64,000 bases of DNA, taken from NCBI GenBank assembly GCA_900319225.1, contig ONNV01000001.1, positions 160,663 through 224,662 on the forward strand. Reading direction: 5' to 3'. Position numbers and translations under genes: made by a program. The number at the start of each line of letters is the position of its first letter. Position 1 is the first letter of the stretch. The stretch is from an uncultured Prevotellaceae bacterium (GTDB lineage Bacteria > Bacteroidota > Bacteroidia > Bacteroidales > Bacteroidaceae). The notes under the pieces were generated by a model. It did not search any database, was not told the DNA's origin, and saw nothing but the letters and a program-made list of their open reading frames with translations. Below are positions 18,654 to 61,226 of this stretch, piece after piece.

Positions 18654-18746
18654 GTGAAATTGGGGACTGTCCCCTTTTTCACGTGTAGAGGTTGGCTATA
18701 ATAGCTTACTTTACCACGTGAAAAAGGGGACAGTCCCCAATTTCAC
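18654..18746. repeat. Long inverted repeat with GGGGACAGTCCCC core (element A)
   Basis: Two perfect 32-base arms (18654-18685 and 18715-18746) flank a 29-base loop. Each arm contains the near-palindromic core GGGGACTGTCCCC plus T-rich and CACGTG parts. It fills the space between the convergent lipoprotein gene and serS. A partial extra copy of the arm start lies at 18641-18653. Confidence 0.9.
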
Positions 18747-18764
18747 ATTGCGAGCCTTTTTTTA

Positions 18765-20084
18765 TCAGTCGATGATTTCGAATCCTGTGTAAGGAACCAA
18801 GGCCTTGGGGATGCGGATGCCCTTGTCGGTCTGGTTGTTCTCCAGGATGGCGGCAACTATACGGGGCAGAGCCAGGGCTGAACCGTTCAGTGTGTGGCAG
18901 AGCTCGGCTTTCTTCTCGCCGGTCTTGCGGTAACGGCATTTGAGACGGTTTGCCTGATAGGTGTCAAAGTTTGATACTGATGATACCTCAAGCCAGCGGC
19001 CCTGTGCCTCTGAGTATACCTCAAAGTCATAGCAGATGGCCGATGTAAAGCTCTGGTCACCACCGCACAGACGCAGTATACGGTAGGGGAGTTCCAACTT
19101 CTGGAGCAGGCCCTCTACGTGAGCAAGCATCTCCTTGTGGCTCTCGGCTGAGTGCTCAGGGGTATCAATACGTACAATTTCAATCTTGGAGAACTCATGC
19201 AGACGGTTCAGACCGCGTACATCCTTGCCGTATGAACCGGCCTCACGACGGAAACACTGGGTGTATGCGCAGTTCTTTATGGGCAACTGCTTCTCATCCA
19301 GGATGACGTCGCGGTAGATGTTGGTCACAGGAACTTCGGCGGTGGGAATAAGATAGAGGTCATCAACCTCGCAGTGGTACATTTGGCCCTCCTTGTCGGG
19401 GAGCTGACCTGTACCGTAACCAGATGCCTGGTTTACAACTGTAGGAGGCATGATCTCTGTATAACCGGCCTTGTTAGCCTCGGCCAGAAAGAAGTTGATT
19501 AGTGCACGCTGCAGCTGGGCTCCCTTTCCAATATATACGGGGAATCCGGCGCCTGTAATCTTTACACCCAGGTCAAAATCAATAAGGTTATACTTCTTGG
19601 CAAGCTCCCAGTGAGGTACCTTGGCCTCACCGTTCTGGGGGTTGCATGTCCAGTTGCCTACTGTATCCTGTCCAATGACACACTCTTTCAGGTTTGACTT
19701 TACAACCCAGTTGTCCTCGGCGCAGGTGCCATCTGGTACCTCGGGGTAGGGTATGTTAGGAATTGTGCAGAGCAGAGCGGTAAGGTCATTCTCAGCCTGC
19801 TCCTTCTTGGCTTCAAGTTCTGTGGCCGCAGCCTTGAGCTCAGCAACACGTGCCTTGGCCTGATCGGCCTCTTCCTTGTTGCCGGCCTTCATGGCCTGTC
19901 CTATCTTGGCGGCAAGTGTCTTGCCCTCGGCAAGATTGTTATCCAACTGAGCCTGGGCCTTCTTTCTGGCATCGTTCAGGCTGATGGCCTGGGCAATAGC
20001 CTCCTCAGCATTCTTGAAATGCTTTTTCTTAAGACCTGCAATAACCAGGTCGGTCTGTTCTGTAATCTGTTTGAGTGTGAGCAT
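18765..20084 (-). CDS. serS: Serine-tRNA ligase
   Basis: 439 residues. The N-terminal antiparallel coiled-coil arm (about 25-110) that grips the long variable arm of tRNA-Ser is clear, followed by the class II core: TEVPVTNIYRDVI-type motif, FRREAGSYGKDVRGLNRLHEFSKIE (motif 2) and NGSALALPRIVAAILEN (motif 3). Starts only 19 bases after the rpmA terminator, so it may be expressed partly by readthrough from the rplU promoter. Confidence 0.95.
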   Translation of the reverse strand: MLTLKQITEQTDLVIAGLKKKHFKNAEEAIAQAISLNDARKKAQAQLDNNLAEGKTLAAKIGQAMKAGNKEEADQAKARVAELKAAATELEAKKEQAENDLTALLCTIPNIPYPEVPDGTCAEDNWVVKSNLKECVIGQDTVGNWTCNPQNGEAKVPHWELAKKYNLIDFDLGVKITGAGFPVYIGKGAQLQRALINFFLAEANKAGYTEIMPPTVVNQASGYGTGQLPDKEGQMYHCEVDDLYLIPTAEVPVTNIYRDVILDEKQLPIKNCAYTQCFRREAGSYGKDVRGLNRLHEFSKIEIVRIDTPEHSAESHKEMLAHVEGLLQKLELPYRILRLCGGDQSFTSAICYDFEVYSEAQGRWLEVSSVSNFDTYQANRLKCRYRKTGEKKAELCHTLNGSALALPRIVAAILENNQTDKGIRIPKALVPYTGFEIID

Positions 20085-20102
20085 ACGTTTACTCTTTAAA
20101 TT

Positions 20103-20130
20103 AAAAAAGGCTCACGCTGAAGTGAGCCTC
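20103..20130 (-). terminator. Terminator after rplU-rpmA
   Basis: Minus strand AGGCTCAC / GTGAGCCT hairpin followed by a run of six T. It stands between rpmA and serS, which continue in the same direction. Confidence 0.85.
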
Positions 20131-20149
20131 TTTTATTCTGTTTTGTTTA

Positions 20150-20422
20150 TCAGGCCTCAGCTTTCTCCTGAACGGGGATTACTGAAACATAGCTTCTGTC
20201 CTTGCGGCCCTTCTTGAACTGAACAACACCGTCGACCAGTGCGAACAGAGTGTGGTCTTTACCCATACCGATGTTCTCGCCAGGATTGTGCTGTGTGCCA
20301 CGCTGACGTACTATGATGTTACCTGCTTTTGCATACTGTCCACCCCAAATCTTAACGCCAAGGCGCTTGCTGGCAGACTCACGGCCGTTCTTAGAACTAC
20401 CTACACCTTTTTTATGTGCCAT
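20150..20422 (-). CDS. rpmA: 50S ribosomal protein L27
   Basis: 90 residues starting [20 protein letters not shown] with the N-terminal tail that reaches the peptidyl-transferase centre and the [11 protein letters not shown] and [10 protein letters not shown] segments. No extra N-terminal cleavable extension of the Firmicutes type. Partner of rplU, 19 bases downstream of it. Confidence 0.97.
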
Positions 20423-20441
20423 TTCTTTCTAATTTTTAGGG

Positions 20442-20759
20442 TTATGCTACTACTTCCTTAACCAGGAGCTCTGTGAACTGCTGGCGGTGACCGTTCAGCT
20501 TACGGTAACCTTTTCTTCTTCTCTTGTGGAATACAAGAACCTTGTCACCCTTAACGAGTGCTGTCTTGACCTCACATACTACCTTTGCGCCCTTAACGGT
20601 AGGAGCACCCACGGTGATCTTTCCGTCCTTGTCGGCGAGAAGGATTTTCTCGAACTCGATGCTTGCACCAGCCTCAATGTCCTGAATGTGGTGCACGAAC
20701 AGCTTCATTCCCTCTTCAATCTTGAACTGCTGTCCCTGAATTTCAGCAATAACGTACAT
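20442..20759 (-). CDS. rplU: 50S ribosomal protein L21
   Basis: 105 residues: [20 protein letters not shown], the [21 protein letters not shown] basic RNA-binding loop and the FTELLVKEV end are typical of L21. First gene of the rplU-rpmA pair, with a promoter at 20846-20853 and a structured leader. Confidence 0.97.
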
Positions 20760-20787
20760 TTAATGTTGCTTTTATTCGTTTCTCCGT

Positions 20788-20827
20788 GAGGTGGCCCGCA
20801 AACTCCTGCGAACGCTTCTCTGACCTC
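20788..20827 (-). promoter_or_regulatory. Structured leader of rplU-rpmA
   Basis: In the roughly 85-base leader, GAGGT/ACCTC and an inner CGCA/TGCG helix form a nested hairpin. Ribosomal protein operons often carry such leaders for autogenous control; that role is inferred. Confidence 0.4.
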
Positions 20828-20845
20828 ATCGGCACTAATCGGGCG

Positions 20846-20853
20846 CAAAATTA
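20846..20853 (-). promoter_or_regulatory. minus-7 promoter element for rplU-rpmA
   Basis: TAATTTTG followed by CGC on the minus strand, 86 bases upstream of the rplU ATG. Confidence 0.7.
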
Positions 20854-20909
20854 CTATTTTACCACGTCTCTACAAAATATTTCAGTTGTTTTTTTGCTGC
20901 TAAACAAAT

Positions 20910-20961
20910 GTCCCACAGCAACCACCGGGAGAGTCTCTTCCCGGTAGGTCTACTGTGGGAC
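20910..20961. repeat. Nested hairpin downstream of the small secreted-protein gene
   Basis: Outer stem GTCCCACAG / CTGTGGGAC (perfect, 9 bp), middle ACC/GGT and inner CCGGGAgAG / CTcTTCCCGG with single bulges. It follows the minus-strand gene at 20987 and may terminate it, although no clean T run follows. Confidence 0.7.
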
Positions 20962-20986
20962 TTTGAGGCAATATAAGGAGAGTTAT

Positions 20987-21475
20987 TCAGAAATAGAAGA
21001 ACATGTTGTTGAAAAGGTCCTCAATTGAGTTGTAGTGAATGAAATCCCTGAAAGGGAAGTAGTAATCAATGTAGGGCTTTGGAATGCATTCGAAGACTAC
21101 GTCCAGCCCCGTGGAAAAACCGGCAAGAGATTCATCTATAACGGATGTCTGATCCAGGTTAATATCATATTGCAGGCCTGTTATGGGCATTTTTACACCA
21201 TGGGAATTATTGTACAGGTTCTGCTTCTTTCTCATAAAGCATATTTCATTGTCGGGATTGACCAGACGGAATGAGAAATTGCCGTTTAAGTCTGTCTTTG
21301 TCTGCGCCATGATGCGCTCATTTGCGTTCCTCTCTATGACTATAGCACCGGCAACAGGACCGATGCTGTCTGTTACGGTACCGTAGATGATATCACCTTT
21401 TTGCGGCTTATCCTGAGCAAAAGCAGAAACGATGGTTGCTGCTGCTGACAATAACAATGCAAATATCTTTTTCAT
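20987..21475 (-). CDS. Small secreted protein with carboxypeptidase-regulatory-like domain
   Basis: 162 residues with signal peptide (MKKIFALLLSAAATIVSAFA). From about 28 it reads IIYGTVTDSIGPVAGAIVIE, then TKTDLNGNFSFRLVNPDNEICF, the pattern of the Ig-like CarboxypepD_reg fold that fronts many TonB-dependent receptors. Here the domain is nearly the whole protein; the remaining 60 residues are aromatic-rich (PYIDYYFPFRDFIHYNSIED) and end NNMFFYF. No plug or barrel follows. It could be a free-standing scaffold domain or an eroded receptor start; the frame is intact. Confidence 0.65.
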   Translation of the reverse strand: MKKIFALLLSAAATIVSAFAQDKPQKGDIIYGTVTDSIGPVAGAIVIERNANERIMAQTKTDLNGNFSFRLVNPDNEICFMRKKQNLYNNSHGVKMPITGLQYDINLDQTSVIDESLAGFSTGLDVVFECIPKPYIDYYFPFRDFIHYNSIEDLFNNMFFYF

Positions 21476-21498
21476 ATCCTATGGTGTTTGGTTTGAGG

Positions 21499-21506
21499 CA
21501 AAGGTA
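21499..21506 (-). promoter_or_regulatory. minus-7 promoter element for the small secreted protein
   Basis: TACCTTTG on the minus strand, 23 bases upstream of the ATG at 21475. Confidence 0.65.
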
Positions 21507-21613
21507 GACCGTAAGGCGTGCACAGCAAAGAAAAAAGCGTTGCAAACCTGTTGCAATTGAGCGAAGGCCTTCTGTTCCCCTTAAAATATTAAGGAGTCTA
21601 ATACAATATGCTT

Positions 21614-22789
21614 TTATCTGAGTTTGTGGGACTCAAAGTGGTTGCGGATGGAGGTGAAGTAGAAGGTCACTCCAAAGAGATTGACAAGCCAGGAGGCCCA
21701 GAAGGCGCTGTGGTAGCCCCAGAATTCACTGCATACGCCTCCGATAAGCACTCCCAGTCCCACACCGGCATCCCATGAGGTGAGGATGGAGGAGTTGGCG
21801 GTTCCGCGCTGTGAGTTGGGAGCCAGGTTAATGAACATGGTCTGGAAGGCCGGGTACATATGGCCGTTTCCAAGACCTACAATAAGTCCTGCTCCGTAAT
21901 AGCCAATGGGGTTATGTATGGCTGCAAAGAGGAAATAGCCTACCAGTGATACGCACATTCCCATGGAGGCGTTGCGTGACACCTTTCCGTCACGCAGGTA
22001 GCGTGCTCCGGTAAGGCGTGACAGGATAAGACCGATGGCACAAAGACCAAAGAAAAGTCCCGTTCCACCGGTGATTCCCAGTTCCTCCTTGCCGTAGATG
22101 GCTACGTAAGTGGAGAGTATGCCGTAGCTGAATGCAAAGCAAGTTATGCCGATGGCCTCACGCCAGCCTTCCAGCAGGAAGAAACGGTCCAGTGAGAGCA
22201 CCTTCTTTTCCGGCACATAATCACGTTTGGGCAGGCGTATTGACATCTCCAGCAGCAGTCCTATCAGGGATGCGGCAAGCGACACCCAGAAAAGAGCCTT
22301 GTAGCTGCCGCCAAATGCGCCCAAAAGTACAATGGCCAGAGCCGGTCCCAGAGCCATTGCCAGGTTGTTGCTCAGACCGTAGTAACCAATGGCCTCACCA
22401 CGGCGTGAGGATGGTACCACATCGATAGCTACGGTGCTGGCTGCTACTGTGGTGGCCCCGAACGGGGCGCCGTGAACGGTACGGAATATGGCGAATGCTG
22501 CCAGTGAACCGGCAGCCAGATAACCTGCAAAAATGCTGAAAAACAGAGCCCCGCAGATGACCAGTACGGTCTTCCGCGGGAAACTGTCAACCAGAAAGCC
22601 ACTGAACGGACGTACCGTCAGAGCCATTATTGAATAACCGGTGAGCACCATACCGATGGTATCCTTGGTGGCACCGAATGTTTCGCTAAGGTAAAGAGGA
22701 AGCAGTGGAACGATAAGCATAAAGGAGAAATGGACCAGAAAGTTTACTGTCCAGATCTTTATGTAGTTTGCGTTCCAGAGCTTCTCCAT
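21614..22789 (-). CDS. MFS transporter
   Basis: 391 residues with twelve predicted membrane segments, beginning WNANYIKIWTVNFLVHFSFM. The MFS motif A-like loop reads GFLVDSFPRKTVLV between helices 2 and 3, and a second-half RYLRDGKVSRNASMG loop follows helix 8. It falls in the YfcJ/arabinose-efflux-like group of drug/sugar exporters; the substrate cannot be assigned. It begins six bases after the stop of the upstream TldD-like gene and is probably co-transcribed with it. Confidence 0.85.
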   Translation of the reverse strand: MEKLWNANYIKIWTVNFLVHFSFMLIVPLLPLYLSETFGATKDTIGMVLTGYSIMALTVRPFSGFLVDSFPRKTVLVICGALFFSIFAGYLAAGSLAAFAIFRTVHGAPFGATTVAASTVAIDVVPSSRRGEAIGYYGLSNNLAMALGPALAIVLLGAFGGSYKALFWVSLAASLIGLLLEMSIRLPKRDYVPEKKVLSLDRFFLLEGWREAIGITCFAFSYGILSTYVAIYGKEELGITGGTGLFFGLCAIGLILSRLTGARYLRDGKVSRNASMGMCVSLVGYFLFAAIHNPIGYYGAGLIVGLGNGHMYPAFQTMFINLAPNSQRGTANSSILTSWDAGVGLGVLIGGVCSEFWGYHSAFWASWLVNLFGVTFYFTSIRNHFESHKLR

Positions 22790-22795
22790 AGTCTG

Positions 22796-25700
22796 TTATC
22801 TCCAGGCCGGATTGATGAGCTGGAACTCCTGGGCCTTGGTGGGTTTCTTGATATTCATCTCTACAGATTCCAGTATCATGGATTCAGGTGCAATCATTGT
22901 GGACAGGGTATTGCCGTTGAATATAGAACTCTGGATCTCCTCCTCCTTGGATGCCGTGATGACGTGCATCAGCTCGCGGCGCTCAAAAGCGGGAATATCT
23001 GCGTTGATGATGGTCTCCTGGCCGGTCTTGACATCGATACGGGTCAGGACATAGCAGTTGTACTCAATGTTGCGCAGCATGTATGTGTGGTCCAGACCGG
23101 CTTTCTTGGCCTCGGATATGAGCCGTGCCTTGATCTTGGATTGCGGAATGGTTTTGCTGCAGGTTACATGCATGATGCTCATCCTGTTGTTGCCTACAGT
23201 TGAATAATCCTGAATCATGGCGTGACCGGTAGCGCGGGGGGCGCCTGCGGCCGGATAACGTCCGCCTATGAGTCTCTTGAGCATACCGTTCTCGACCATT
23301 ACAAAGTCCGGATCGGGTTTGACACCGTCAAAGTCAACGTCATAGGCTCCTGCTATCTTCTTGCCCTTGTACTCCTTAAGGTCTGAGTAAAGGTGTATGC
23401 TCAGCTTGGTGTCAAGGAACCTCTTGCCAAGAAGCTGATAACCGGTAAGACTGGATTGTGAACTTGTAGTGTAACGGTACAGACTTGCATAAAGATCCCA
23501 TGTGTTGCGTGCCGTTCCGTAATTCTTGACTATGGTATGGAAGGATTCGGATACAGCCTCTTTCTCCAGCAGGATGGGGCCGATGTAGAAATCATCGACA
23601 GTCTCGGCATTGCTCTTTGTTACCATCATATCAGCAAATTCGCGAATACTTGCTGCAATCTTGTCGGCGTCATAATCCCTGGCATCAAACGGGATATCAT
23701 AGTTCTCAGTCAGTTCAACGCCGTCAGCGTTCCTGACAGAAACGACAGTCTCAATATAGCCGGGTGTGTAAGGCATGCGTATCTTGAGGCCCTCTGAGTT
23801 GAGGCGGTAAACATCAGTATACTGTATGCCCAGGTTTACATTGGTTTTGTAGAGCTGAGGATAATCCAGGTAGATGGCTGACAGCTTGTTTGCAAGCTCC
23901 TCAAGCTGGGCACGGTCTATCTGTACGTCCTGTACGCTCTCATAGATATATTCTCCTCCGGGCAATGAGATAATCTCCGGGATACTGGCCTCTGACTCCG
24001 GTTTGGGGTTGTTCTTGAGGGCGCCCTCTTTCTGGGCGTACATCCTGATGGCATTCTTGTATACATAGTCTCCAGCCTGCCAGAGGGTATGCCTGATGGC
24101 GTCATAGTCAACTTTGTTACCCATATTCATTGAGACGGATATGGGGCTGTTGGAGCAGATGCTGTCACCTACCTGCCAGTTAAGTGAACCGGTTACCTGG
24201 ATCGGGGTGTAAGTGCTGCTAACAAGTCCGCCAAGAACTGAGTTCAGTTCAAGTGACTTGCCTACGTTTACCCTGTAATCGGCATAGAAGGGCGGCTGCT
24301 GACCATCGGCCTTGAGACCTGTCATGGAACGGTCCATCTCATCCTTCATGGCCCTGAATATGATTTCCTGGTTACTGCCCTTGATATTACTGTACCCGGG
24401 CCGGTCAAGATACTGGGGCAGCTCATAACCAACCTCTGAGCGCTGTGTCTCAACCTTCTTGATATATATCATTGGTGAGATTGCGGTTACTGGAACCCAG
24501 CCTGACTCTGCACCGCAGTTGCCGGTGAATACATGTGGTGTCTGGCCGCCTGCTGCTATGCCTGAGAACATGGCAAGGGGCGTTCCGATAAGGGTCACTC
24601 CACGAACAAGCTCATCGGGACGGCCGTCGGCATAGACGCGGTAAACCTCAACCGGGTCAACATTGAATGAGTTGATGGATCCGCCGTCGCCCAGATATGT
24701 GAGGCCGCTGGTTGCTGTACGGAAATAGTATCCGTACTCCTTTTTCTCCTCCTTGACAGCCTTGATGAGCATCTGACGCAGCTGCTCATCGGTATAAGGA
24801 TTGGTGGTTTCTATAAGCAGGTTTGACTGACGTGATACTGCATCATAGCCGGCAGCGGCACGTCCGTGTCCGTTACTCTTGTAGAATCCGTCTATGGGAG
24901 TGCGGTCAACCAGGAAGTTGGTCAGGACTCCGTCTTTAACGGCCTGTACGCGCTCAGCCTTGACACCCTCATCATCATAATCGTAATGACCGTAGAGTGA
25001 CGTGCCGGCATAATAGTCCAGGGTGGGGTCATCATAAACCTGGAAACTCTCGGGGAGAACCAGCTGACCGACCAGTTTCTTGAATGTCTGGCCGCCGCTC
25101 TTCATGCGGTGGGCCTCAAGACGGTGACCGAATATCTCATGGAAGAACACGCCGCTGGCAGAACCTGACATGATGGCCGGGCCGGCATAAGGCTCAGCGA
25201 TAGGTGCCTCGCGCAGGGCCAGCAGACGCTGTATCAGGTCTTTTGCGGTTTCAATCAGGACCTCATCAGTAGGCAGGTCATCAAGTGAGTATGAGAACCA
25301 GTCCTTATAGAGCGGGCAGGTCATACCGTCAGTGGCACGTATTACGGCATTAAGCATAAGACGTACGTTCCTGCGGTTCTGGACTACAGTGGAACCATCA
25401 GATGTAAGGACGTAGATACGCTCTACAGTGTAAACGATATTTGCGGTGCCCTGCTCAAGCTGGGGGCACTCCTTGAATACTGATGAGATACGGTCCATGC
25501 GCTCCTCCCAGTACTTGCGGTCAAATGTGTATGCAGACTGGGGCAGGGGCTGCTCATAATACTGCTCAACGGGGGCGTCGCTGAAACAGGGTGCTTTATC
25601 CTCATTGTCGGCGTTGGTCCTCATCTGTGAGAGAGCATCGTTGTAGTTGTTTACAGCAATGCTGTAGCGGTTCATGGTCTCACTCCAGATACCCTGACGT

Positions 25701-26101: not shown

Positions 26102-26146
26102 AATAAAGGTTTATAATTAGGTTAAAAAACTATTGCAATACAAGTT

Positions 26147-26154
26147 CAAACGTA
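26147..26154 (-). promoter_or_regulatory. minus-7 promoter element for the TldD-like gene
   Basis: TACGTTTG on the minus strand, 45 bases upstream of the ATG at 26101. Confidence 0.5.
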
Positions 26155-26170
26155 TGATAAACAAGTAGTA

Positions 26171-28516: not shown

Positions 28517-28532
28517 TATGGTGTTTCAGTGG

Positions 28533-29417: not shown

Positions 29418-29425
29418 TATTCTTT

Positions 29426-29447
29426 CCTGTCATAGTTTTTGGACAGG
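29426..29447 (-). promoter_or_regulatory. Hairpin in the metF leader
   Basis: On the minus strand CCTGTC and GACAGG (6 bp, 10-base loop) form a stem whose descending arm carries the AGGA just before the metF ATG. Further up in the same roughly 80-base leader, CCGG is repeated as a possible helix. It could hide the ribosome entry site; no known riboswitch consensus was recognised. Confidence 0.4.
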
Positions 29448-29498
29448 CTGGGGGTACCGGTCCGTGGGTTCAACAAATACTTTTTCCGGTTGGGGGTG

Positions 29499-29506
29499 CA
29501 AAGGTA
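29499..29506 (-). promoter_or_regulatory. minus-7 promoter element for metF-metH
   Basis: TACCTTTG on the minus strand, 81 bases upstream of the metF ATG. Confidence 0.65.
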
Positions 29507-29531
29507 ATACTTTTTGCGCAACCTTTATAAT

Positions 29532-30461: not shown

Positions 30462-30477
30462 ATTGTGTGTCTCTTTT

Positions 30478-31110: not shown

Positions 31111-31112
31111 GA

Positions 31113-33542: not shown

Positions 33543-33576
33543 AAATGTGTGTCAAGCCCTTTGTATGCTTAATGTG

Positions 33577-33650: not shown

Positions 33651-33671
33651 CGCCCTGAAAACTTATTGATA

Positions 33672-39440: not shown

Positions 39441-39533
39441 TTTGCACATGAGGGACTGTCCCCTTTTGTCACCTGATAAAAGTATGCGATTGCAGTTTTT
39501 TTCCGGCATGTGCAAAAGGGAACTGTCCCCAAT
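39441..39533. repeat. Inverted repeat with GGGACTGTCCCC core (element B)
   Basis: TTTGCACATG at 39441-39450 pairs with CATGTGCAAA at 39507-39516, and each side carries a core (GGGACTGTCCCC, and GGGAACTGTCCCC at 39518-39530). Arms are less perfect than in the other elements. It is the only copy lying between divergent genes, next to the ABC-operon promoter. Confidence 0.75.
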
Positions 39534-47019: not shown

Positions 47020-47044
47020 TTACAAATAACAATACATATTTGAA

Positions 47045-48544: not shown

Positions 48545-48592
48545 TGTTATAAAAAATAACGGCTGAAAGGTTGGTATATTGAATTATAAATG

Positions 48593-48600
48593 TAACTTTG
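48593..48600 (+). promoter_or_regulatory. minus-7 promoter element for xylA
   Basis: TAACTTTG with TTGG at 48571-48574 (18-base spacer). A GCCTTTC/GAAAGGC hairpin (48600-48620) lies in the leader. It gives xylA a transcript separate from xylB. Confidence 0.7.
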
Positions 48601-48665
48601 CCTTTCGCGCAGGGAAAGGCGTAAACTAGAGTATTTATTCACATTTTATAAATTAAAGATCAATT

Positions 48666-49976: not shown

Positions 49977-49979
49977 TAA

Positions 49980-50138
49980 GGGCGCAAAGGGGACGGTTGA
50001 CTTCGTCGAGCTAAACCTTCTATCTGTGCCCTTTATATAGAATAATGGCCGGACAGCTATTCAAACTGTCCGGCCATTATTGTTTTATATAGTTTGATTC
50101 ACTGGAAGGGCACAGATAGAACCGTCCCCTTTGCGCCC
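49980..50138. repeat. Triple nested inverted repeat with GGGGACGGTT core (element C)
   Basis: Three perfect stems, one inside the other: outer 19 bp (49980-49998 with 50120-50138, containing CGCAAAGGGGACGGTT), middle 15 bp (50019-50033 with 50106-50120) and inner 16 bp (50041-50056 with 50066-50081). It exactly fills the space between the convergent xylA and SDR genes. Confidence 0.92.
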
Positions 50139-50141
50139 TTG

Positions 50142-50936: not shown

Positions 50937-50937
50937 A

Positions 50938-51861: not shown

Positions 51862-51914
51862 ATCAGGAACCTTTTTATGTGGTGTAAAAATAACGTTTTT
51901 TCCCGATAAATGGT

Positions 51915-51922
51915 TACTTTTG
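51915..51922 (+). promoter_or_regulatory. minus-7 promoter element for the TPR/HTH regulator
   Basis: TACTTTTG with only seven bases to the ATG at 51930. Confidence 0.6.
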
Positions 51923-51929
51923 GCACTAT

Positions 51930-53486: not shown

Positions 53487-53487
53487 C

Positions 53488-53556
53488 GCAAAGGGGACGG
53501 TTCTAAACGCGTAGGGGACGGTTCTGTTCGCAAACAGAACCGTCCCCTACGCGTTT
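53488..53556. repeat. Inverted repeat with GGGGACGGTTCT core (element D)
   Basis: Perfect 24-base arms (53505-53528 and 53533-53556) with a four-base CGCA loop, plus an extra half copy of the core at 53488-53504. The right arm runs into the stop codon of the DedA gene. It occupies the whole space between convergent genes. Confidence 0.92.
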
Positions 53557-54191
53557 TATTTCTTGCGGCGGTTGCGGATAATGATAATAGCGATTGCCGC
53601 TACCACTATGGCTGCGATGGTGTAGCCTATTTCATGGCTGTAATGCTCAACTGTGGCAATGAGCTGGTCCTCGGGGACTGCCTTGCCCAGATAGTATCCA
53701 AGTAGAGCCAATACTGTGTTCCAGATTCCGGCACCGAGTGCGGTGAATGCTACAAAGCGGCCCAGAGGCATCTTGGCCAGGCCGGCGGGTATGGATATGA
53801 GCTGGCGTATGGCGGGAATGAGACGGCCTATGAATGTTGATACGGCACCGTGCTCATTGAAGTATTTCTCTGCATTATTTATCTTTTCACCGCTCAATAG
53901 GAGCATATGTCCCAGCTTGCTGTCGGCAAACCTGTATACCAGCGGCTTGCCAATCCACAGTGAAAGGAAATAGTTTACAAGTGCACCCAGAATGGCACCC
54001 AGAGTTGCAAACAGAACTATAAGGATGGCATTCATGTGGGCGGTTGACACAGAGTGGTAAACTGCCGGTGGAATCACTACTTCTGACGGGAAGGGTATGA
54101 ATGAACTCTCTATGGTCATGAGCATAGTGACGGTCCAGTAATTAAGGTGGTCAAAATACCACTGTATCAGAGGCTGAAAGATTTCTCCCAT
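53556..54191 (-). CDS. DedA-family membrane protein
   Basis: 211 residues with four to five hydrophobic segments. The family pattern is clear: FIPFPSEVVIPPAVYHS, FATLGAILGALVNYFLSLWIG, and FIGRLIPAIRQLISIPAGLAKM. DedA proteins take part in undecaprenyl-phosphate or lipid flipping and membrane energetics. Third gene of the glnS-TPR-DedA run. Confidence 0.9.
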   Translation of the reverse strand: MGEIFQPLIQWYFDHLNYWTVTMLMTIESSFIPFPSEVVIPPAVYHSVSTAHMNAILIVLFATLGAILGALVNYFLSLWIGKPLVYRFADSKLGHMLLLSGEKINNAEKYFNEHGAVSTFIGRLIPAIRQLISIPAGLAKMPLGRFVAFTALGAGIWNTVLALLGYYLGKAVPEDQLIATVEHYSHEIGYTIAAIVVAAIAIIIIRNRRKK

Positions 54192-54194
54192 AGC

Positions 54195-55310
54195 TTATTG
54201 TAGGTTGTTGTCGGTTAATAGGTCAGTTTCCTTATCAGGCAGTATATGTTGTGCAAGTTTCTTCAGGTCTTCATCATTGGGGTCCAGAGCCAGTCCCTGA
54301 TGCAGGAATGACTGCGCCTGCTGGGACTTGCCGGTCTTGTGTGAGCTCTCGGCCAGGTAGTAATAGAGTTCCACATACATCTCCTGCGGCACGTCGGGGT
54401 CAAGCATGAGCATTGCCAACGCATCCATGAAATAGTCATACGCTATGTCATACTGCATCATCTCATACTGGCATCGGCCGCAATAATAGAGCAGGGTATA
54501 GGATGTCTTGTCATCCTCAAGCAGTTCCTTGTATATCCTGAATGCCTCATCCCAGCTCTCCATGTTGAATATGCAGCTGGCTTTCATCATGCGGGCCGAT
54601 TTGTTGTCAGGGTCTATGGCCTCGATGAACTCAAAACACTCGCGTGCCTGGGCAAAGTCATTCTTCTCATAGTAGATACGGCCCAGCTGCTCCCAGTAGT
54701 ATGTGTCATATGCAAATTCATCCAGGAGGTGGTTGTACCACTCGATGGCGGTATCGGCCTGGTCTGTATCAAAAAAGAGGTCGGCCTGGAGCTCTATGAA
54801 ATTGCGGGAGTCAGGTGACAGCAGCAGAGCCATGTCCAGCCATTTCTGGCACAGATCATAGTTGCGGTTGTCCATATACTTGACTATGATGTCATTGAGC
54901 ATTCCGGGATCGTCATCACTCATCTGGACAGCCTGCGTAAAGTATGCATCGGCCTCATCCAGACGGTCAAAAGCCAGTTCTATCTCACCTTTCAGGTAGA
55001 GCAGCTCCTGATTGTCGGGGTCTGTGATGGATTCCGTGAGCACCCTGGCCTCATCCTTGAGACCGCGGCGCAGCAGGTTGTTGGCCTTGGATATGAGTAT
55101 GTCTGAGTCTGACGGGTGCAACTGCAGTCCGTACTCAATGGCGCTGTCTGATTTGTCCAGCTGTCCGTTCATGGAGTAGTACTCGGCAATGTTGGCTATG
55201 TCCATGCTGTCAAAATAGACGGAGCTACCATCTGACAGCATGTTCTCATACATGTCCAGAATCTCTATGAACTCCTGACTGTCAAAGTATGATGCCGAGT
55301 CGTCCCTCAT
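54195..55310 (-). CDS. Tetratricopeptide-repeat protein, cytoplasmic
   Basis: 371 residues without signal peptide; nearly all of it is TPR-type helical repeats (for example YSMNGQLDKSDSAIEYGLQLH, LGRIYYEKNDFAQARECFEFI, YYLAESSHKTGKSQQAQSFLH). Strongly acidic. Starts directly at the end of glnS with no intergenic bases, so it is expected to be co-translated. A scaffold or adaptor role is likely; partner unknown. Confidence 0.8.
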   Translation of the reverse strand: MRDDSASYFDSQEFIEILDMYENMLSDGSSVYFDSMDIANIAEYYSMNGQLDKSDSAIEYGLQLHPSDSDILISKANNLLRRGLKDEARVLTESITDPDNQELLYLKGEIELAFDRLDEADAYFTQAVQMSDDDPGMLNDIIVKYMDNRNYDLCQKWLDMALLLSPDSRNFIELQADLFFDTDQADTAIEWYNHLLDEFAYDTYYWEQLGRIYYEKNDFAQARECFEFIEAIDPDNKSARMMKASCIFNMESWDEAFRIYKELLEDDKTSYTLLYYCGRCQYEMMQYDIAYDYFMDALAMLMLDPDVPQEMYVELYYYLAESSHKTGKSQQAQSFLHQGLALDPNDEDLKKLAQHILPDKETDLLTDNNLQ

Positions 55311-57053
55311 TTAAGCCTTATCCTTGACCTTGTTCCAGGTATCCTTGAGTGATACGGTGCGGTTGAATATCAGATGATCGGGGGTAGAGTCCTTGTCAGT
55401 GCAGAAATAGCCTATGCGCTGGAACTGGAAGTGATCCAGAGGCTTGGTTCCGGCCAGATACTGCTCTACGTAGCAGTTCTCGCGTATCTGGAGTGAATCC
55501 GGGTTTTTCATCTGCTTGAGTGCCTCTACGGGATCCATACCCTCCTCACGCAGGCGGGCCAGCTCGTCACGCGGATTCTCAACCTTCCACAGACGGTCAT
55601 AGAGACGTACCTCGGCCTTGATGGCGTGGGCTGCGCTTACCCAGTGGATGGTACCCTTACACTTTCGGTTGCAGTCTGACTCACCGGTCTTGGTGTTGGG
55701 TATATACTCGCAGTAAACCTCCTCAATGGTACCGTCATCGGCCTTCTTGCAGCCGGTGCAGAGCACGATGTAGGCGCTCTTAAGACGTACCTCGCGGCCT
55801 TGTGACAGGCGGAAATACTTGGCGGGTGCATCCTCCATGAAATCATCACGCTCTATCCAGAGCTCGCGGCTGAATGTTATCTTGTGGCTGCCTGCCTCGG
55901 GATCCTCAGGGTTGTTGATGGCCTCAAGCTCCTCGGTCTTGCCCTCGGGGTAGTTGGTTACTATCAGCTTTACGGGATCTATTACGGCCGATACACGTGT
56001 GGCACGGCGGTTCAGGTCCTCGCGGATGGCAGACTCCATCAGGGCCATGTCATTAAGGGCATCGAACTTGGTGTAGCCGATGCGGTCCACGAACATGCGG
56101 ATGGACTCAGGTGTGTAACCGCGGCGGCGGTATCCGCAGATGGTCGGCATGCGGGGATCATCCCATCCTGATACCATTCCGTTCTGTACCAGAGCCAGCA
56201 GGTTACGCTTGCTCAAAAGCGTATAGTTCAGGTTCAGCTTGTTGAACTCAGTCTGACGCGGACGGTTGTCATCAAGGTCCTCGCCCTTCTTGAGCCAGTC
56301 TATGAACAGGTCATAGAGCGGACGGTGAGGCACGAACTCCAAAGTGCAGAGAGAGTGGGTGACACCCTCAAAGAAATCACTCTGTCCGTGTGCAAAGTCA
56401 TACATGGGGTATGCCTTCCACTTGGTTCCGGTGCGGTGATGGGGAGTCTTGACAATGCGGTATATGATAGGATCGCGGAACAGCATGTTGTTGTGAGCCA
56501 TGTCAATCTTGGCACGCAGTACCATTGATCCCTCCTCAAGCTCGCCGCTGTTCATCTTGTAGAACAGGTCCAGGCTCTCCTGGATGGGGCGGTCACGGTA
56601 AGGGCTGTTGATGCCGGGCTGGGTGGGAGTTCCCTTCTGTGAAAGGATGGTCTCCTGATCCTGCTCGTCAACGTAGGCCTTGCCCTCCTTGATAAGCTCT
56701 ATGGCAAAGTCCCAAAGCTGCTGGAAATAGTCTGATGCGTAGAACTCATTCGCCCACTGGAATCCAAGCCACTGGATATCCTCCTTGATGGCGTCTACAT
56801 ACTCTGTGTCCTCCTTGGTAGGGTTGGTGTCATCAAAACGCAGGTTGCAGATGCCGCCGTACTTCTGTGCCATGCCAAAATCCAGACAGATGGCCTTGGC
56901 GTGACCGATGTGAAGGTAACCGTTGGGTTCGGGCGGGAAACGGGTCTGTATCCTGCCTCCGTTCTTGCCTTCTGCCAGGTCCTTCTGGATCATATCCTCA
57001 ATGAAGCTCAGGCTCTTTTTCTCACTGTTTTCTGCTACGTTGTTCTCTGCCAT
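55311..57053 (-). CDS. glnS: Glutamine-tRNA ligase
   Basis: 580 residues from ATG 57053 (MAENNVAENSEKKSLSFIED); a TTG nine codons earlier lies inside the promoter and is rejected. Class I signatures: TRFPPEPNGYLHIGHAKAI (HIGH) and LSKRNLLALV (KMSKS-like, reading LLSKR). FDDTNPTKED fits the GlxRS group, and the C-terminal anticodon-binding beta-barrels follow. Direct charging of tRNA-Gln means an amidotransferase route is not required. Confidence 0.95.
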   Translation of the reverse strand: MAENNVAENSEKKSLSFIEDMIQKDLAEGKNGGRIQTRFPPEPNGYLHIGHAKAICLDFGMAQKYGGICNLRFDDTNPTKEDTEYVDAIKEDIQWLGFQWANEFYASDYFQQLWDFAIELIKEGKAYVDEQDQETILSQKGTPTQPGINSPYRDRPIQESLDLFYKMNSGELEEGSMVLRAKIDMAHNNMLFRDPIIYRIVKTPHHRTGTKWKAYPMYDFAHGQSDFFEGVTHSLCTLEFVPHRPLYDLFIDWLKKGEDLDDNRPRQTEFNKLNLNYTLLSKRNLLALVQNGMVSGWDDPRMPTICGYRRRGYTPESIRMFVDRIGYTKFDALNDMALMESAIREDLNRRATRVSAVIDPVKLIVTNYPEGKTEELEAINNPEDPEAGSHKITFSRELWIERDDFMEDAPAKYFRLSQGREVRLKSAYIVLCTGCKKADDGTIEEVYCEYIPNTKTGESDCNRKCKGTIHWVSAAHAIKAEVRLYDRLWKVENPRDELARLREEGMDPVEALKQMKNPDSLQIRENCYVEQYLAGTKPLDHFQFQRIGYFCTDKDSTPDHLIFNRTVSLKDTWNKVKDKA

Positions 57054-57077
57054 ATACGTCTTTTTATTTTGAGAGTG

Positions 57078-57085
57078 CAAAGTTA
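57078..57085 (-). promoter_or_regulatory. minus-7 promoter element for glnS-TPR-DedA
   Basis: TAACTTTG on the minus strand, 24 bases upstream of ATG 57053; back to back with the plus-strand element at 57121. Confidence 0.65.
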
Positions 57086-57120
57086 CCTTTTTTGGCTGTA
57101 AGAATTGAAACTTAAATAAC

Positions 57121-57128
57121 TAATTTTG
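57121..57128 (+). promoter_or_regulatory. minus-7 promoter element for the TIGR02757 gene
   Basis: TAATTTTG with seven bases before ATG 57136: near-leaderless. Confidence 0.65.
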
Positions 57129-57135
57129 CATAACT

Positions 57136-57864
57136 ATGATTCAGGAAACTAAAGAGCAGCTTATACGGTGGGCCGATAAGTGTGAATGCGCAGCATTCAT
57201 TGAGGGTGATCCGGTGCAGTTCCCGCACCGTTATGACTCTGACCGTGATATTGAGGTGTCGGCCTTTATATCGGCCTGGATGGCATACGGAAGCCGTAAG
57301 GTGTTTCTGGGTATTCTGGAACGGTTGCACGGCATGATGGATGCTGCCGGAGGACCGTACATGTATATCGTATCGGGAGCATGGCGTAGCCTGGACCATG
57401 ATGCGGGCAGTTGCCTGTACCGCTTCTACAAGTGGCATGATTTCAGCTTGTTATGTGAGCGGCTCAATGAACTCTATTCAACGGTGAAAAGCCTTGAATT
57501 CCTGTTTGAACCGGGTGAGCCGCTGGAGCAGGGGGTGAGCAGGTTATGCCATGCCTTTGAAGGAGTGAACGGCATTCCGGTTGAGGGCAGTACATCGGCC
57601 AACAAACGGCTCTATATGTTCCTGCGCTGGATGGTACGCAAGGGTAGCCCGGTTGATTTTGGCATATGGACACGTATTGACCCGTCAAGACTGCTGGTGC
57701 CGGTTGATACCCATGTCTATGCTACTGCAAAGGCGTTGGGGCTGACCTCCAGGAACAGCGCAGACCTTAAGACAAGCATTGAAATTACCGGTCAAATGGC
57801 ACAAATCTGGCCCGATGACCCGGCACGTGGCGATTTTGCCCTGTACGGAAGTCAGGTTATGTGA
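57136..57864 (+). CDS. TIGR02757/DUF2400 family protein
   Basis: 242 residues. The pattern FPHRYDSDRDIEVSAFISAWMAYG near the start, SANKRLYMFLRWMVRKG and LLVPVDTHVYATAKALGL match the TIGR02757 family, whose architecture recalls helix-hairpin DNA glycosylases (the VDTH segment is like their catalytic Asp region). No biochemical function is established. No signal peptide. Confidence 0.85.
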   Translation: MIQETKEQLIRWADKCECAAFIEGDPVQFPHRYDSDRDIEVSAFISAWMAYGSRKVFLGILERLHGMMDAAGGPYMYIVSGAWRSLDHDAGSCLYRFYKWHDFSLLCERLNELYSTVKSLEFLFEPGEPLEQGVSRLCHAFEGVNGIPVEGSTSANKRLYMFLRWMVRKGSPVDFGIWTRIDPSRLLVPVDTHVYATAKALGLTSRNSADLKTSIEITGQMAQIWPDDPARGDFALYGSQVM

Positions 57865-57872
57865 AAATTGTG

Positions 57873-57880
57873 TAATTTTG
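57873..57880 (+). promoter_or_regulatory. minus-7 promoter element for the DUF2279 gene
   Basis: TAATTTTG then CGC, seven bases before ATG 57888, and located right after the preceding stop codon. Confidence 0.6.
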
Positions 57881-57887
57881 CGCCGCA

Positions 57888-58916
57888 ATGTGTAAAAAGT
57901 ATTTATTGTTTCTTGCAGCTGTGATAGCCTGCATGCCGGCAAAATCCATGCCGGGAACCGAAACTGTCGATTCAGGACAGGATTCCATCAGTCATTATCA
58001 GAGAAATGTGGCACTGGTGCTTGGCACCGAAGGCGTTCTTGTGGGAGGTATCATGACATCCCTCTATAAATCCTGGTACTCAGGTTCTGAGACCGGCGGA
58101 TTCCATCTCTACAATGACAACAAGGAGTGGCTGCAGATGGATAAGGCTGGTCATGCCAACTCTTGCTATAACCTTGGTATCGTGGGATATGAGGCACTCA
58201 GGCTGGCCGGATGGGATGAAAAACACTCCATAATCTACGGCGGAACCTTGGGACTGGCCATCATGTCAGTTGTTGAGGTTTTTGACGGTCTGTCGGCCGA
58301 TTGGGGATTCTCCTGGGGGGATATGACCGCCAATCTTTTAGGAACCGGCCTTTTCATGGCACAGCAGGCCTTGTGGCATGAACAGCGTATTGCACTCAAG
58401 TACTCCTACCATAATTCAGGCTGTCCCAAATACAATGTAAGCAATCCGTTGACATTGGAGAGGGATTATATAATGGGTGAGGACTGGCTTGACCGTATCT
58501 ATGAGGATTACAGCGGAATTACCGTGTGGATGGCATTTGACATAAAGTCACTGTGCATGAAAAAGGATAGCCGTTTCCCGTCATGGCTGGGCCTTGCAAT
58601 AGGTTACGGAGCCGAGGGAATGACCGGTGAATATAACAATTTCAAGCCTGCAGGTCACGTGGGTGATGACGGTAACTGGGGACGCGGATGGGAATACGAT
58701 CCTGTAAACGCTCCGCATGACCTGAAATATATGCCCAATGATGCCCGTCACCGTCAGTTCTTTATAGCTCCCGATATAGACATCTCGCGTATTCCGTGCC
58801 GCAACAAGACTCTCAAGCACGTGCTGCGCGTGTTGAGTGCCATCAAGATACCTACGCCTACCCTTGAGTATCAGACCGGCGGAGTAGGATTCCAGTGGCA
58901 CTGGCTATATTTCTGA
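57888..58916 (+). CDS. DUF2279 family envelope protein
   Basis: 342 residues with a signal peptide (MCKKYLLFLAAVIACMPAKS). Beta-barrel-like or membrane-associated sequence with WLQMDKAGHANSCYNLGI, DGLSADWGFSWGDMTANLLG and a C-terminal aromatic end GGVGFQWHWLYF ending in Phe, as in outer-membrane proteins. Matches DUF2279 (predicted periplasmic lipoprotein/outer-membrane) in Bacteroidota. Function unknown. Confidence 0.8.
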   Translation: MCKKYLLFLAAVIACMPAKSMPGTETVDSGQDSISHYQRNVALVLGTEGVLVGGIMTSLYKSWYSGSETGGFHLYNDNKEWLQMDKAGHANSCYNLGIVGYEALRLAGWDEKHSIIYGGTLGLAIMSVVEVFDGLSADWGFSWGDMTANLLGTGLFMAQQALWHEQRIALKYSYHNSGCPKYNVSNPLTLERDYIMGEDWLDRIYEDYSGITVWMAFDIKSLCMKKDSRFPSWLGLAIGYGAEGMTGEYNNFKPAGHVGDDGNWGRGWEYDPVNAPHDLKYMPNDARHRQFFIAPDIDISRIPCRNKTLKHVLRVLSAIKIPTPTLEYQTGGVGFQWHWLYF

Positions 58917-58966
58917 TTTTATCCGATATTCATCGTCCTGTTTGCGTCAAGGTTCGCAAAAAGTGT

Positions 58967-58974
58967 TACTTTTG
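58967..58974 (+). promoter_or_regulatory. minus-7 promoter element for GT2-rarA
   Basis: TACTTTTG with TTTG at 58941-58944, 21 bases before ATG 58996. Confidence 0.65.
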
Positions 58975-58995
58975 CAGAGTAACGACCAACTGCTG

Positions 58996-59880
58996 ATGGA
59001 ATCACTTTCAATCCTTATTCCTGTCTACAACTGGGATTGCACCAAACTTATCAAGGACCTTCATTTCCAGGGTCTGGTGCTTGGTATTCCGTATGAGATA
59101 ATAGTGGCCGATGACTGCTCAACCGCCAAGGATCTGCTTGAGAAGAACCGAATCGTGGCTGAGAGTCATGAGAACTGCCGTTTCTTTGCGCTCCAGCATA
59201 ACATAGGCCGTGCCGCCATACGTAATTTCATGGCCGATCAGTCCAGGTATGAGAAACTGCTTTTCCTGGATTGTGACTCGGCTGTAAAAAGCAAGCAGTT
59301 CCTTAAGAAATATGTTGTTGCAGCCGATAAGGCATCGGTAGTATGCGGAGGCCTTATTCATCCCGATGAGATGCCGCAGCAGGGGGTGGAGTTGAGATAC
59401 CTCTATGAGAAGAGTGCCGCAAATGAGCGCTCGGCAGGTTTCAGAAGCAAGAACCCGTACCTGAGGTTTACGTCATTCTCATTCCTGATAGAGAAGTCTG
59501 TGTTCATGGCTATCAGGTTTGATGAGTCATATATAGGGTATGGTTATGAGGATGTGCAGTTCGGACATGAACTGGAGCAGAATGGCATCAGTATACTGCA
59601 TATAGACAATCCGATGGCTCATCTGGGACTTGAAGCCAGTGACGCATATCTTGCCAAGACCCGCCAAGCCGTACTGAATGCGTTTGAGCATAAGAAAGTG
59701 ATAGGTGACAGTTCCAAACTGCTTACCCATTACAATAAGGTCCTTAAATGGAAGATGAGATGGTTTTTCAGGATCATGTGGACATTCTTCCAGAAAAGTA
59801 TGGAGAAGAACCTGCTTGGCCCCAAACCCAAGCTCAGGGTCTTTTCATTGTATAAACTCTGTTACATCTGCCTGTTGTAA
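58996..59880 (+). CDS. Family 2 glycosyltransferase
   Basis: 294 residues from ATG 58996 (MESLSILIPVYNWDCTKLIKD); a TTG 18 codons earlier precedes the promoter and is rejected. GT-A features: IIVADDCSTAKDLLEKN, FLDCDSAV (DxD-like DCD), and GYGYEDVQFGHELEQNG (the ED acid pair). No membrane helix. It likely adds a sugar to a surface glycan or lipid; acceptor unknown. Sits 15 bases before rarA. Confidence 0.88.
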   Translation: MESLSILIPVYNWDCTKLIKDLHFQGLVLGIPYEIIVADDCSTAKDLLEKNRIVAESHENCRFFALQHNIGRAAIRNFMADQSRYEKLLFLDCDSAVKSKQFLKKYVVAADKASVVCGGLIHPDEMPQQGVELRYLYEKSAANERSAGFRSKNPYLRFTSFSFLIEKSVFMAIRFDESYIGYGYEDVQFGHELEQNGISILHIDNPMAHLGLEASDAYLAKTRQAVLNAFEHKKVIGDSSKLLTHYNKVLKWKMRWFFRIMWTFFQKSMEKNLLGPKPKLRVFSLYKLCYICLL

Positions 59881-59895
59881 CTAAAACCATAAAGG

Positions 59896-61161
59896 ATGCA
59901 ACCGTTAGCCGAAAGAATGAGACCCAGGTCTCTTGATGAATACGTAGGGCAGACGCACCTGGTCGGTCCCGGTGCAGTGCTGCGTCGCATGATAGACTCC
60001 GGCAGGTTGTCATCATTCATACTCTGGGGCCCTCCCGGAACCGGAAAGACCACTCTGGCTCAGATTGTGGCCACTAAACTGGATCTGCCGTTCAGCACTT
60101 TGAGCGCCGTTACGGCCGGAGTAAAGGAGGTGCGTGAGGTCATTGACCGCGCCCGCAGCAATCCTCTCTTCCGTACCAAGGGCAGTCCCATCCTTTTTAT
60201 CGATGAAATCCACCGTTTCAACAAGGCTCAGCAGGATTCACTGTTGGGTGCAGTGGAGCGCGGTGACATAACGCTTATAGGTGCCACTACAGAGAACCCG
60301 TCATTTGAGGTGATACGTCCTCTGCTGTCACGTATGCAGGTTTATGTGCTCAACTCACTTGAGAAAGATGACCTGCTCAAGTTGCTTGACCGTGCCATAA
60401 AGAATGATGTCATACTTAAGGAGCGTGACATTGAACTGCGTGAGACAACGGCTCTGCTGCGTTTCTCGGGTGGTGATGCACGCAAACTGCTCAACATCCT
60501 GGAACTTGTGGTTGAGGCCGACAGCTCCGACAAGGTGGTAATCACCGATGAAATCGTCAATGAGCGTCTGCAGCAGAATCCGCTGGCTTATGACAAGGAC
60601 GGTGAGATGCACTATGATATCATATCGGCTTTCATCAAATCAATACGCGGCAGCGACCCGGATGCCGCACTCTACTGGCTGGCCCGTATGGTTCAGGCAG
60701 GTGAGGATCCGGCTTTCATAGCCAGGCGTCTTGTCATATCCGCATCCGAGGATGTGGGCCTGGCCAATCCCAATGCCCTGCTTATAGCAAATGCTGCGTT
60801 TGACGCCGTCATGAAGATAGGTTGGCCCGAGGGACGTATCCCGCTGGCCGAGGCTACCGTATATCTGGCTACCAGCCCCAAGAGCAATTCGGCTTATCTG
60901 GGTATCGGCCAGGCGCTGGCTAAGGTCTCAGAGACCGGAAACTTGCCTGTTCCGCTGCATCTCAGGAATGCGCCTACATCACTTATGAAAGATCTGGGAT
61001 ATGGTGAGGATTACCGGTATGCACATGATTTTGCGGGGCATTTTGTGCGGCAGCAGTATCTTCCGGATGAAATCGCTGGGATGCGGTTCTGGGAGGCTCA
61101 GGAGAATGCTCAGGAGGAGCGGATCAAGGAGCGGATGGAGGCTTTGTGGGGAAAGAAATGA
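59896..61161 (+). CDS. rarA: Replication-associated recombination protein A (AAA+)
   Basis: 421 residues. Walker A GPPGTGKTT at 45-53, Walker B ILFIDEIHRFN, sensor 1 GATTENPSFEV, and the C-terminal MgsA tetramerisation region (RLVISASEDVGLANPNALL, PLAEATVYLATSPKSNSAY) are typical. Acts at stalled replication forks. Its stop codon TGA lies inside the left arm of element E. Confidence 0.94.
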   Translation: MQPLAERMRPRSLDEYVGQTHLVGPGAVLRRMIDSGRLSSFILWGPPGTGKTTLAQIVATKLDLPFSTLSAVTAGVKEVREVIDRARSNPLFRTKGSPILFIDEIHRFNKAQQDSLLGAVERGDITLIGATTENPSFEVIRPLLSRMQVYVLNSLEKDDLLKLLDRAIKNDVILKERDIELRETTALLRFSGGDARKLLNILELVVEADSSDKVVITDEIVNERLQQNPLAYDKDGEMHYDIISAFIKSIRGSDPDAALYWLARMVQAGEDPAFIARRLVISASEDVGLANPNALLIANAAFDAVMKIGWPEGRIPLAEATVYLATSPKSNSAYLGIGQALAKVSETGNLPVPLHLRNAPTSLMKDLGYGEDYRYAHDFAGHFVRQQYLPDEIAGMRFWEAQENAQEERIKERMEALWGKK

Positions 61162-61226
61162 CCCAATAGGGACAGTCCCCCTGTGCCATCTTGCATGGCA
61201 CAGGGGGACTGTCCCTATTGGGTCAT
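61158..61226. repeat. Perfect inverted repeat with AGGGACAGTCCCC core (element E)
   Basis: 32-base arms (61158-61189 and 61195-61226) with a five-base loop. The TGA stop of rarA (61159-61161) is in the left arm and the mirror-image TGA stop of the DUF5103 gene (61223-61225) is in the right arm, so one palindrome supplies both convergent stop codons. Confidence 0.95.

Follow-up and report, generated by a model that had tools for sequence, protein, structure and literature searches.

The hairpins described here lie in a 64,000-nucleotide stretch of DNA (the window; positions 160,663 to 224,662 of the forward strand of contig ONNV01000001.1, assembly GCA_900319225.1) from an uncultured Prevotellaceae bacterium. 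A first-pass annotation of the window had listed five of them as inverted repeats, perfect at four loci and mostly at convergent gene ends, that share only a GGGGAC core. We find that at least four of these five elements belong to dispersed repeat families with common arms. Most probably they are non-autonomous repeats of the REPIN type (repetitive extragenic palindromic, or REP, doublets forming hairpins), copied by a REP-associated tyrosine transposase (RAYT) of the TIRYT/RAYT group 1 type, that have settled behind stop codons and there end or cap transcripts. According to our model, an element would consist of two inverted REP-like units around a spacer, with a conserved core (GGGGACGGTTCT or GGGGACAGTCCCC) set in a family-specific complementary stem. 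The Y1/HUH enzyme would recognize the core in the single-stranded hairpin, cleave there and copy the element by transposition. Elements would come to rest, or be retained, directly after stop codons and may there end or cap transcripts, whether of the upstream gene alone or of both genes where two converge. One form, the long F3 element, has its own spacer hairpin with T-tracts on both strands.

Repeat families behind stop codons

In the source genome (2.53 Mb; 2,533,828 bases, an 85%-complete assembly), we counted 352 matches to the pattern GGGGACDGT and 31 to the reversed pattern. Families were analyzed in a non-random sample of 854,170 bases (34%), which comprised contig C5 almost entire, parts of C1, C3, C4, C6, C7, and C11 chosen for hits or for the RAYT gene, and other stretches of C8 to C11 picked blind. 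This sample contains 74 core clusters; a perfect core-containing arm of at least 10 nt was present in 54 and one of at least 19 nt in 35. The clusters include the five families F1 to F5 (Table 1). In each of the five F1 copies, the two arms match over 28 nt with at most one mismatch, and near-identical full arms recur at other loci, these five 61158-type copies being an example. The first-pass annotation had considered the arms specific to each locus and had named identical full arms at many loci as one observation contrary to that view. The genome search revealed such arms, and locus-specific arms were rejected. The arms in the window looked unique because its elements come from different families. 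Since full arms recur elsewhere, most of the pattern is accounted for by the spread of a few families. Copy numbers of three family-specific patterns differed by genome among 37 genomes of the genus. The F3 pattern was present in 10 of them, with the highest numbers in G015 (60) and the source genome (49). The GGGGTCGTTT pattern was wider (21 of 37) and not confined to G011 and G015, where it had first been noticed in RAYT flanks.

The five hairpins of the window are real and exceed chance. All were present where the annotation had placed them, and perfect inverted repeats with an arm of at least 16 nt and a loop of at most 160 nt are given in Table 1; 20 surrogate sequences generated from the window with a first-order Markov model contained no such repeat. 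Long perfect arms were confirmed at four loci, and the element at 39441-39533 is imperfect, as the annotation had implied. By eye, this element resembles a TGTGCAATTGGGGACAGT element behind serS in genome G007; no sister copy was shown in the source genome. Six convergent gene pairs were called in the window, four of them with an element, in agreement with the earlier count. The F1 element at 61157-61227 provides, as its TGA, the stop codon of the plus-strand gene (rarA/mgsA-like), and the minus-strand gene (type IX secretion system plug-like) terminates inside its other arm.

Ten clusters with a single hit were dropped, leaving 64 elements for placement tests. Of these, 43 start no more than 30 nt past a stop codon. 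Elements placed at random into intergenic gaps large enough to hold them gave a mean of 6.15 and a maximum of 15 (300 runs). Fourteen elements abut or overlap the stop. Gene context was convergent for 20 elements, co-directional for 34, and divergent for 4, with 6 lying within a called gene. Counted by gap, an element was carried by 18 of 79 convergent, 32 of 451 co-directional, and 3 of 77 divergent gaps (convergent versus divergent, p = 7e-4); one of the three divergent gaps is where the RAYT gene, overlooked by the gene caller, lies. This caller, a home-made tool based on open reading frames and hexamers, misses genes (coding fractions of 0.63 and 0.81 in two segments). Placement between convergent genes, as first proposed, describes part of the pattern: convergent gaps are enriched and placement at gene 3' ends is strongly non-random, but most elements in the sample lie outside convergent gaps.

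Different species bear different families at the same 3' end. Behind serS, a core element was detected in 7 of 28 genus members, one of them degenerate, and these fall into four or more stem/core types; a plain terminator was recognizable by eye at many other serS ends. At the serS end of the source genome, one half of a AAGGCTCGC..GCGAGCCTT terminator, seen in six relatives, survives beside the element. The serS elements of G010, G021, and G005 match the repeats around the RAYT of the same genome. A core element was present behind the xylose-isomerase-like gene in 5 of 29 genus members and behind the rarA-like gene in 2 of 29 (the source genome and G007), in the latter case at the same point and from different families. 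In several relatives, the rarA-like gene and its neighbor lie just a few bases apart. Incomplete loci were left out (L170 and L175 for serS, L205 for the xylose-isomerase-like gene, and L246 for rarA), and L171, L191, and L193, which have a lone core-like word, were not scored as elements. The element of L200 falls outside the 170-nt span used for the count and was seen in a wider comparison.

Other repeats were also observed at these gene ends in genus members. Tandem arrays of AATTGAGAATT / AATTCTCAATT lie inverted on either side of a terminator-like hairpin behind the xylose-isomerase-like gene (L177, L185, L197, and L203) and the rarA-like gene (L228 and L231). These arrays are another, distinct inverted-repeat family at gene ends, and none was found beside the 22 RAYT genes tested. 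Repeats of the GCCAAAGCC/GCCAACGCC type adjoin the terminator behind the xylose-isomerase-like gene in L184 and L189, forming an inverted array in L184. Direct tandem repeats were seen behind orthologous genes as well, of the TCGGTCCCTCTTGTTTCCAAG type in L191, the GGTGAGTGAAATGGGCTGTTTTGC type in L193 and L164, and the GGTGTGACTCGGCCGGCGGGTGAGTCACGCAAAGG type in L250.

The RAYT gene and its flanking hairpins

The first-pass annotation had named REP palindromes and bacterial interspersed mosaic elements (BIMEs), mobilized by RAYT enzymes, as the closest known class, which proved to be the right neighborhood, and had noted that the window holds no RAYT gene. The single RAYT (Y1_Tnp) gene of the assembly lies elsewhere, on contig C11, with repeats on both flanks. 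In profile searches, it scored 51 bits against PF01797 (cut-off, 23) and 51.8 bits against NCBIfam REP_Tyr_transpos, under the cut-off of 80. Its translation reads NHVH and YIHQNP, corresponding to the HUH and Y---NP motifs of RAYT/TnpAREP proteins. A 77-nt F3 hairpin stands on each side of the gene, and the two copies are 96% alike. With one copy and F3 on both sides, the gene has the low copy number and the flanking repeat characteristic of RAYTs.

A close relative of this RAYT was present in 22 of 37 genus genomes (G030, whose only match was weak, was not counted). We fetched 30 genus RAYT loci and used 28, leaving out L073 (truncated at the edge of its contig) and L074 (a weak match). A GGGGAC, GGGGTC, or GGGACGG core lies within 250 nt on both sides at 25 of the 28 loci, compared to 0.65% of 4000 random placements in other genus loci. 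Core-bearing perfect hairpins (arm of at least 12) on both sides were found at 14 of 28 loci and in 0 of 800 random placements. Stem sequences vary from RAYT to RAYT, and F2-like arms flank the genes of G012, G021, and G005. The median core enrichment was 2.70 in the 22 RAYT-positive genomes versus 0.77 in the 15 negative ones (one-sided Mann-Whitney, p = 0.004). Outside the genus, 8 of 44 homologues had at least one GGGGAC near the gene (350 nt upstream and 600 nt downstream, counted with no control). The RAYT homologues of a Lachnospiraceae locus (L082) and a Eubacteriales locus (L084) have GGGGACGGTTC with a different stem.

We also looked for a helix-turn-helix (HTH) domain. Pfam detected no HTH in the RAYT protein of the source genome. 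HTH_26 matched two clostridial RAYT homologues with E values of 0.004 to 0.006, short of the cut-off. The predicted structure of homologue L084 had a mean pLDDT (predicted local distance difference test score) of 60, with values of 76 to 94 over residues 191 to 246. Foldseek with the RAYT model returned nothing at an E value of 0.001 or below, all matches having an E value above 0.01.

The long F3 form and the pairing of arms

In the source genome, most F3 cores are spaced 43 to 44 or 97 to 100 nt apart; the few others are irregular or in tandem. Copies of the long form, about 130 nt in length, are dispersed, and in this genome the homology among them stops near the element edges. F3 thus presents the REPIN arrangement of two inverted REPs dispersed as one unit of discrete size. 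We read 19 long copies selected by spacing alone, 11 from the source genome and 8 from G015. A spacer hairpin with a stem of at least 9 pairs was present in all 19, compared to 119 of 598 random 75-nt intergenic windows. On both strands, the 9 nt following the hairpin contained at least 5 T in 17 of the 19 copies and in 20 of the 598 windows. The hairpin is of the AAGCAGTGAAGG..CCTTCACTGCTT type in 12 copies, CAGCGAC- or CAGCAGC-like in 5, and of the GCGTCTGG..CCAGACGC type in 2. No compensatory change was seen among the 12 aligned copies of the commonest type, in which the stem is conserved. Across the three types, a hairpin is therefore always present at a constant place, although its sequence differs.

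As judged from sequence, the long F3 form is likely a portable bidirectional terminator. Bidirectional 3' end formation, suggested by the annotation for all the hairpins, is plausible, with sequence support confined to this one form. The occurrence of the hairpin within a unit of fixed size favors a unit that carries it over arms added around a native terminator. Given the three sequence types, the inner hairpin may at times have been captured or exchanged. The addition of arms around native terminators was considered at the 49980 locus and behind serS in G010, and for F2 it may have occurred. An apparent lack of native terminators at element-bearing ends (0 of 28 versus 20 of 78, p = 0.0014) was discarded, as it was lost under equal masking.

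The two arms of an element vary together. Within F3 pairs, 31 mismatches were observed, compared to 66.9 with partners shuffled (23 pairs, p <= 5e-5). Inner variable positions are nearly always concordant, unlike the outermost ones. This test used the 31 F3 rows less 5 irregular rows of the source genome and 3 rows of G012; L209, L215, L218, L220, and L222 lie outside the F3 arm pattern and were included in the long-form hairpin reading. The effect was weaker in F2 (16 versus 24.1 mismatches, 7 pairs, p = 0.008). The simplest reading of co-varying arms is the spread of subfamilies as units, although an occasional homogenizing step would be needed to start each subfamily. Continuous outward copying from the terminator hairpin was rejected as the origin of the arms because the spacer between arm and inner hairpin is non-palindromic.

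The hairpin at 50041-50081 was compared with the corresponding locus of G011 (L202). Both have the same terminator hairpin, with the loop in opposite orientations and arms from different families. The flipped loop is possibly a trace of palindrome-mediated rearrangement.

Table 1. Hairpin elements of the window and the families of the source genome
Feature	Position in window	Perfect inverted repeats (arm, nt)	Sequence	Description
F4-type inverted pair	18652..18748	18652-18748 (34)	ATGTGAAATTGGGGACTGTCCCCTTTTTCACGTG	Between convergent genes 17095-18636(+) and serS 18765-20084(-)
Degenerate pair	39441..39533		GGGGACTGTCCCC type	Arms imperfect; between divergent genes for ribosomal protein L31 (-) and ABC-transporter permease (+)
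F2 inverted pair	49978..50140	49978-50140 (21); 50018-50121 (16)	Outer arms GGGCGCAAAGGGGACGGTT; inner arms TTCTATCTGTGCCCTT	Surrounds a terminator-like hairpin; between convergent genes
Terminator-like hairpin in F2 spacer	50041..50081	50041-50081 (16)	GGCCGGACAG-CTATTCAAA-CTGTCCGGCC	Loop inverted versus orthologous site in G011
F5 element	53488..53556	53505-53556 (24)	GGGGACGGTTCT repeats, 21-nt period	Between convergent genes
F1 element	61157..61227	61157-61227 (33)		71 nt; one of five copies in sample
Family F1			TGACCCaaTAGGGACAGTCCCCCTGTGCCAT	Five copies in sample, including window element 61158
Family F2			GGGCACAAAGGGGACGGTTCTATCTGTGCCC	Includes window element 49980
Family F3			GGRGCCAAAGGGGACGGTTCTRTTTGGCCCC	Flanks the RAYT of the source genome
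Family F4			ATGTGGAAAAGGGGACAGTCCCCTTTTCCACAT and relatives	Includes window element 18654
Family F5			21-nt-period array	Includes window element 53488

Alternative readings and relation to known repeats

An intrinsic (rho-independent) terminator is a stem followed by a T-tract. The long F3 stem, with T-tracts on both strands, is like one but sits inside a mobile inverted repeat. Several observations weigh against RAYT-copied repeats that end transcripts. T-tracts are lacking in the arms of F1 and F5. Under a strict terminator rule, a terminator is called within the element at 6 of 28 convergent ends that carry one and at 7 of 25 such co-directional ends. With equal masks, other terminators at element-bearing ends number 0 against an expected mean of 1.9, with 15% of simulations as low, which is no significant lack. 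The sole RAYT of the 85%-complete assembly has F3 flanks alone, and no cognate RAYT gene for F1, F2, F4, or F5 was found in that assembly. No RAYT was found in G019 or G007. The G011 element behind the xylose-isomerase-like gene is unlike the one RAYT flank fetched from that genome. Moreover, 4 of 15 RAYT-negative genomes are more than 2-fold enriched in the core and 3 of 22 RAYT-positive genomes are below 1.2; incompleteness of metagenome-assembled genomes may be the cause of the enriched RAYT-negative ones.

If the elements were ordinary host terminators or 3' stabilizers, evolved in place and alike by selection, their position at stops and between convergent genes would follow, as would the terminator-like hairpins in some of them. 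This explanation is hardly credible in view of the long common sequence with unrelated flanks, the transposase flanked by the same repeats, the genome-specific families and copy numbers, and the orthologous sites that have no element. It is also very unlikely that they are miniature inverted-repeat transposable elements of an unrelated transposase, with the RAYT a mere passenger between copies. Small size, dispersal, inverted repeats, and the presence of only one RAYT in the assembly would fit such elements. Evidence against them is that 25 of the 28 RAYT loci in the genus have a core on either side of the gene (0.65% in controls) and that similar cores lie next to the clostridial homologues L082 and L084.

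The first-pass annotation favored regeneration of the palindrome in place. In this reading, template switching or hairpin-templated copying would perfect each locus independently of transposition. The co-varying arms of F3 and F2 are consistent with this, as are F1 variants compensated on both sides (CATTAG/CTAATG, CAATAG/CTATTG, and CAAAAG/CTTTTG), the terminator loop flipped in place between the source genome and G011 with an adjoining spacer that looks alike, and the constant place of the long F3 hairpin despite differing stem sequences. We nevertheless think it unlikely. The same full arms occur at other loci, F3 arms differ within elements at 5.9% of sites, many at the outer edge, and whole-unit copying of subfamilies would equally yield co-varying arms. 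What survives of this proposal is that arms vary together, by unit copying or homogenizing, while dispersal of families accounts for most of the pattern. An extension of the model can be put forward tentatively, and we regard it as doubtful: RAYT-driven, portable 3'-end modules, that is, terminator-carrying REPINs (the arms of one family start with the stop codon TGA), might take over native gene ends and rewrite transcript boundaries genus-wide, with arms and inner hairpin matched via single-stranded hairpin copying.

Our preferred reading, RAYT-copied REPIN-type repeats, has close counterparts. The elements most resemble the TIRYT/TIRtron repeats of RAYT group 1, have a REPIN architecture, and appear to be a variant near these kinds. 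In the part of Di Nocera et al. (2013, PMC3733652) used here, TIRYTs are RAYT-like genes between long inverted repeats, many with GGGGWSAS and not of the GTAG kind; for some, the same repeats form moderately abundant dispersed families, two of them in S. maltophilia K279a, and REPs lie mostly downstream of genes. Here too, a RAYT is flanked by long inverted repeats that also form dispersed families. GGGGACAG or GGGGTCAG, in the flanks of some other genus RAYTs, fits GGGGWSAS, whereas the main F3 core GGGGACGG deviates at position 7. Unlike the TIRYTs in that part of PMC3733652, where none is described, one family here has a spacer with a terminator-like hairpin.

According to the corresponding part of Quentin et al. 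(2018, PMC6006769), TIRYTs are the probable equivalent of TnpAREP subclass 2.1, which also takes in RAYT group 1; a C-terminal HTH, and no REP-like structures near the genes, are reported for this subclass. A Y1/HUH enzyme, the Y---NP motif, a C-terminal extension, low copy number, and divergent copies are shared with our RAYTs, which may belong to this subclass; in contrast, hairpin pairs flank many of the genes here, and the C-terminal HTH is weakly supported. As in the REPINs and BIMEs presented in the portions used of Bertels and Rainey (2011, PMC3116915) and PMC6006769, two inverted REP units form one long hairpin and spread jointly, but there is no GTAG tag, the conserved part is a core within the stem, and stems vary by family. 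By eye, the 31 F3 pairs and the RAYT-flanking pair had no regular GTAG/GTGG at the foot of the hairpin; GTAG occurred there once, in L217. Because the main core is off at one GGGGWSAS position and the HTH is weakly supported, we place the elements near TIRYT/REPIN and not as a proven member. Literature searches for REPIN or REP with intrinsic or bidirectional terminators, in which subscription journals were mostly not covered, listed no title about REPINs that carry a terminator. Among papers that contain one of the bare cores, those listed looked unrelated.

Little has been described of the DNA targets of RAYT group 1/TIRYT enzymes, a large class of RAYTs. The genus studied here offers, together, the enzyme, several element families that differ in stem but have a core in common, and occupied as well as unoccupied orthologous sites. 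One can therefore test directly whether core or stem is recognized, how targets are chosen, and how transcript ends are affected. A mobile element that brings its own two-way terminator would show concretely how dense genomes can tolerate repeats, or benefit from them.

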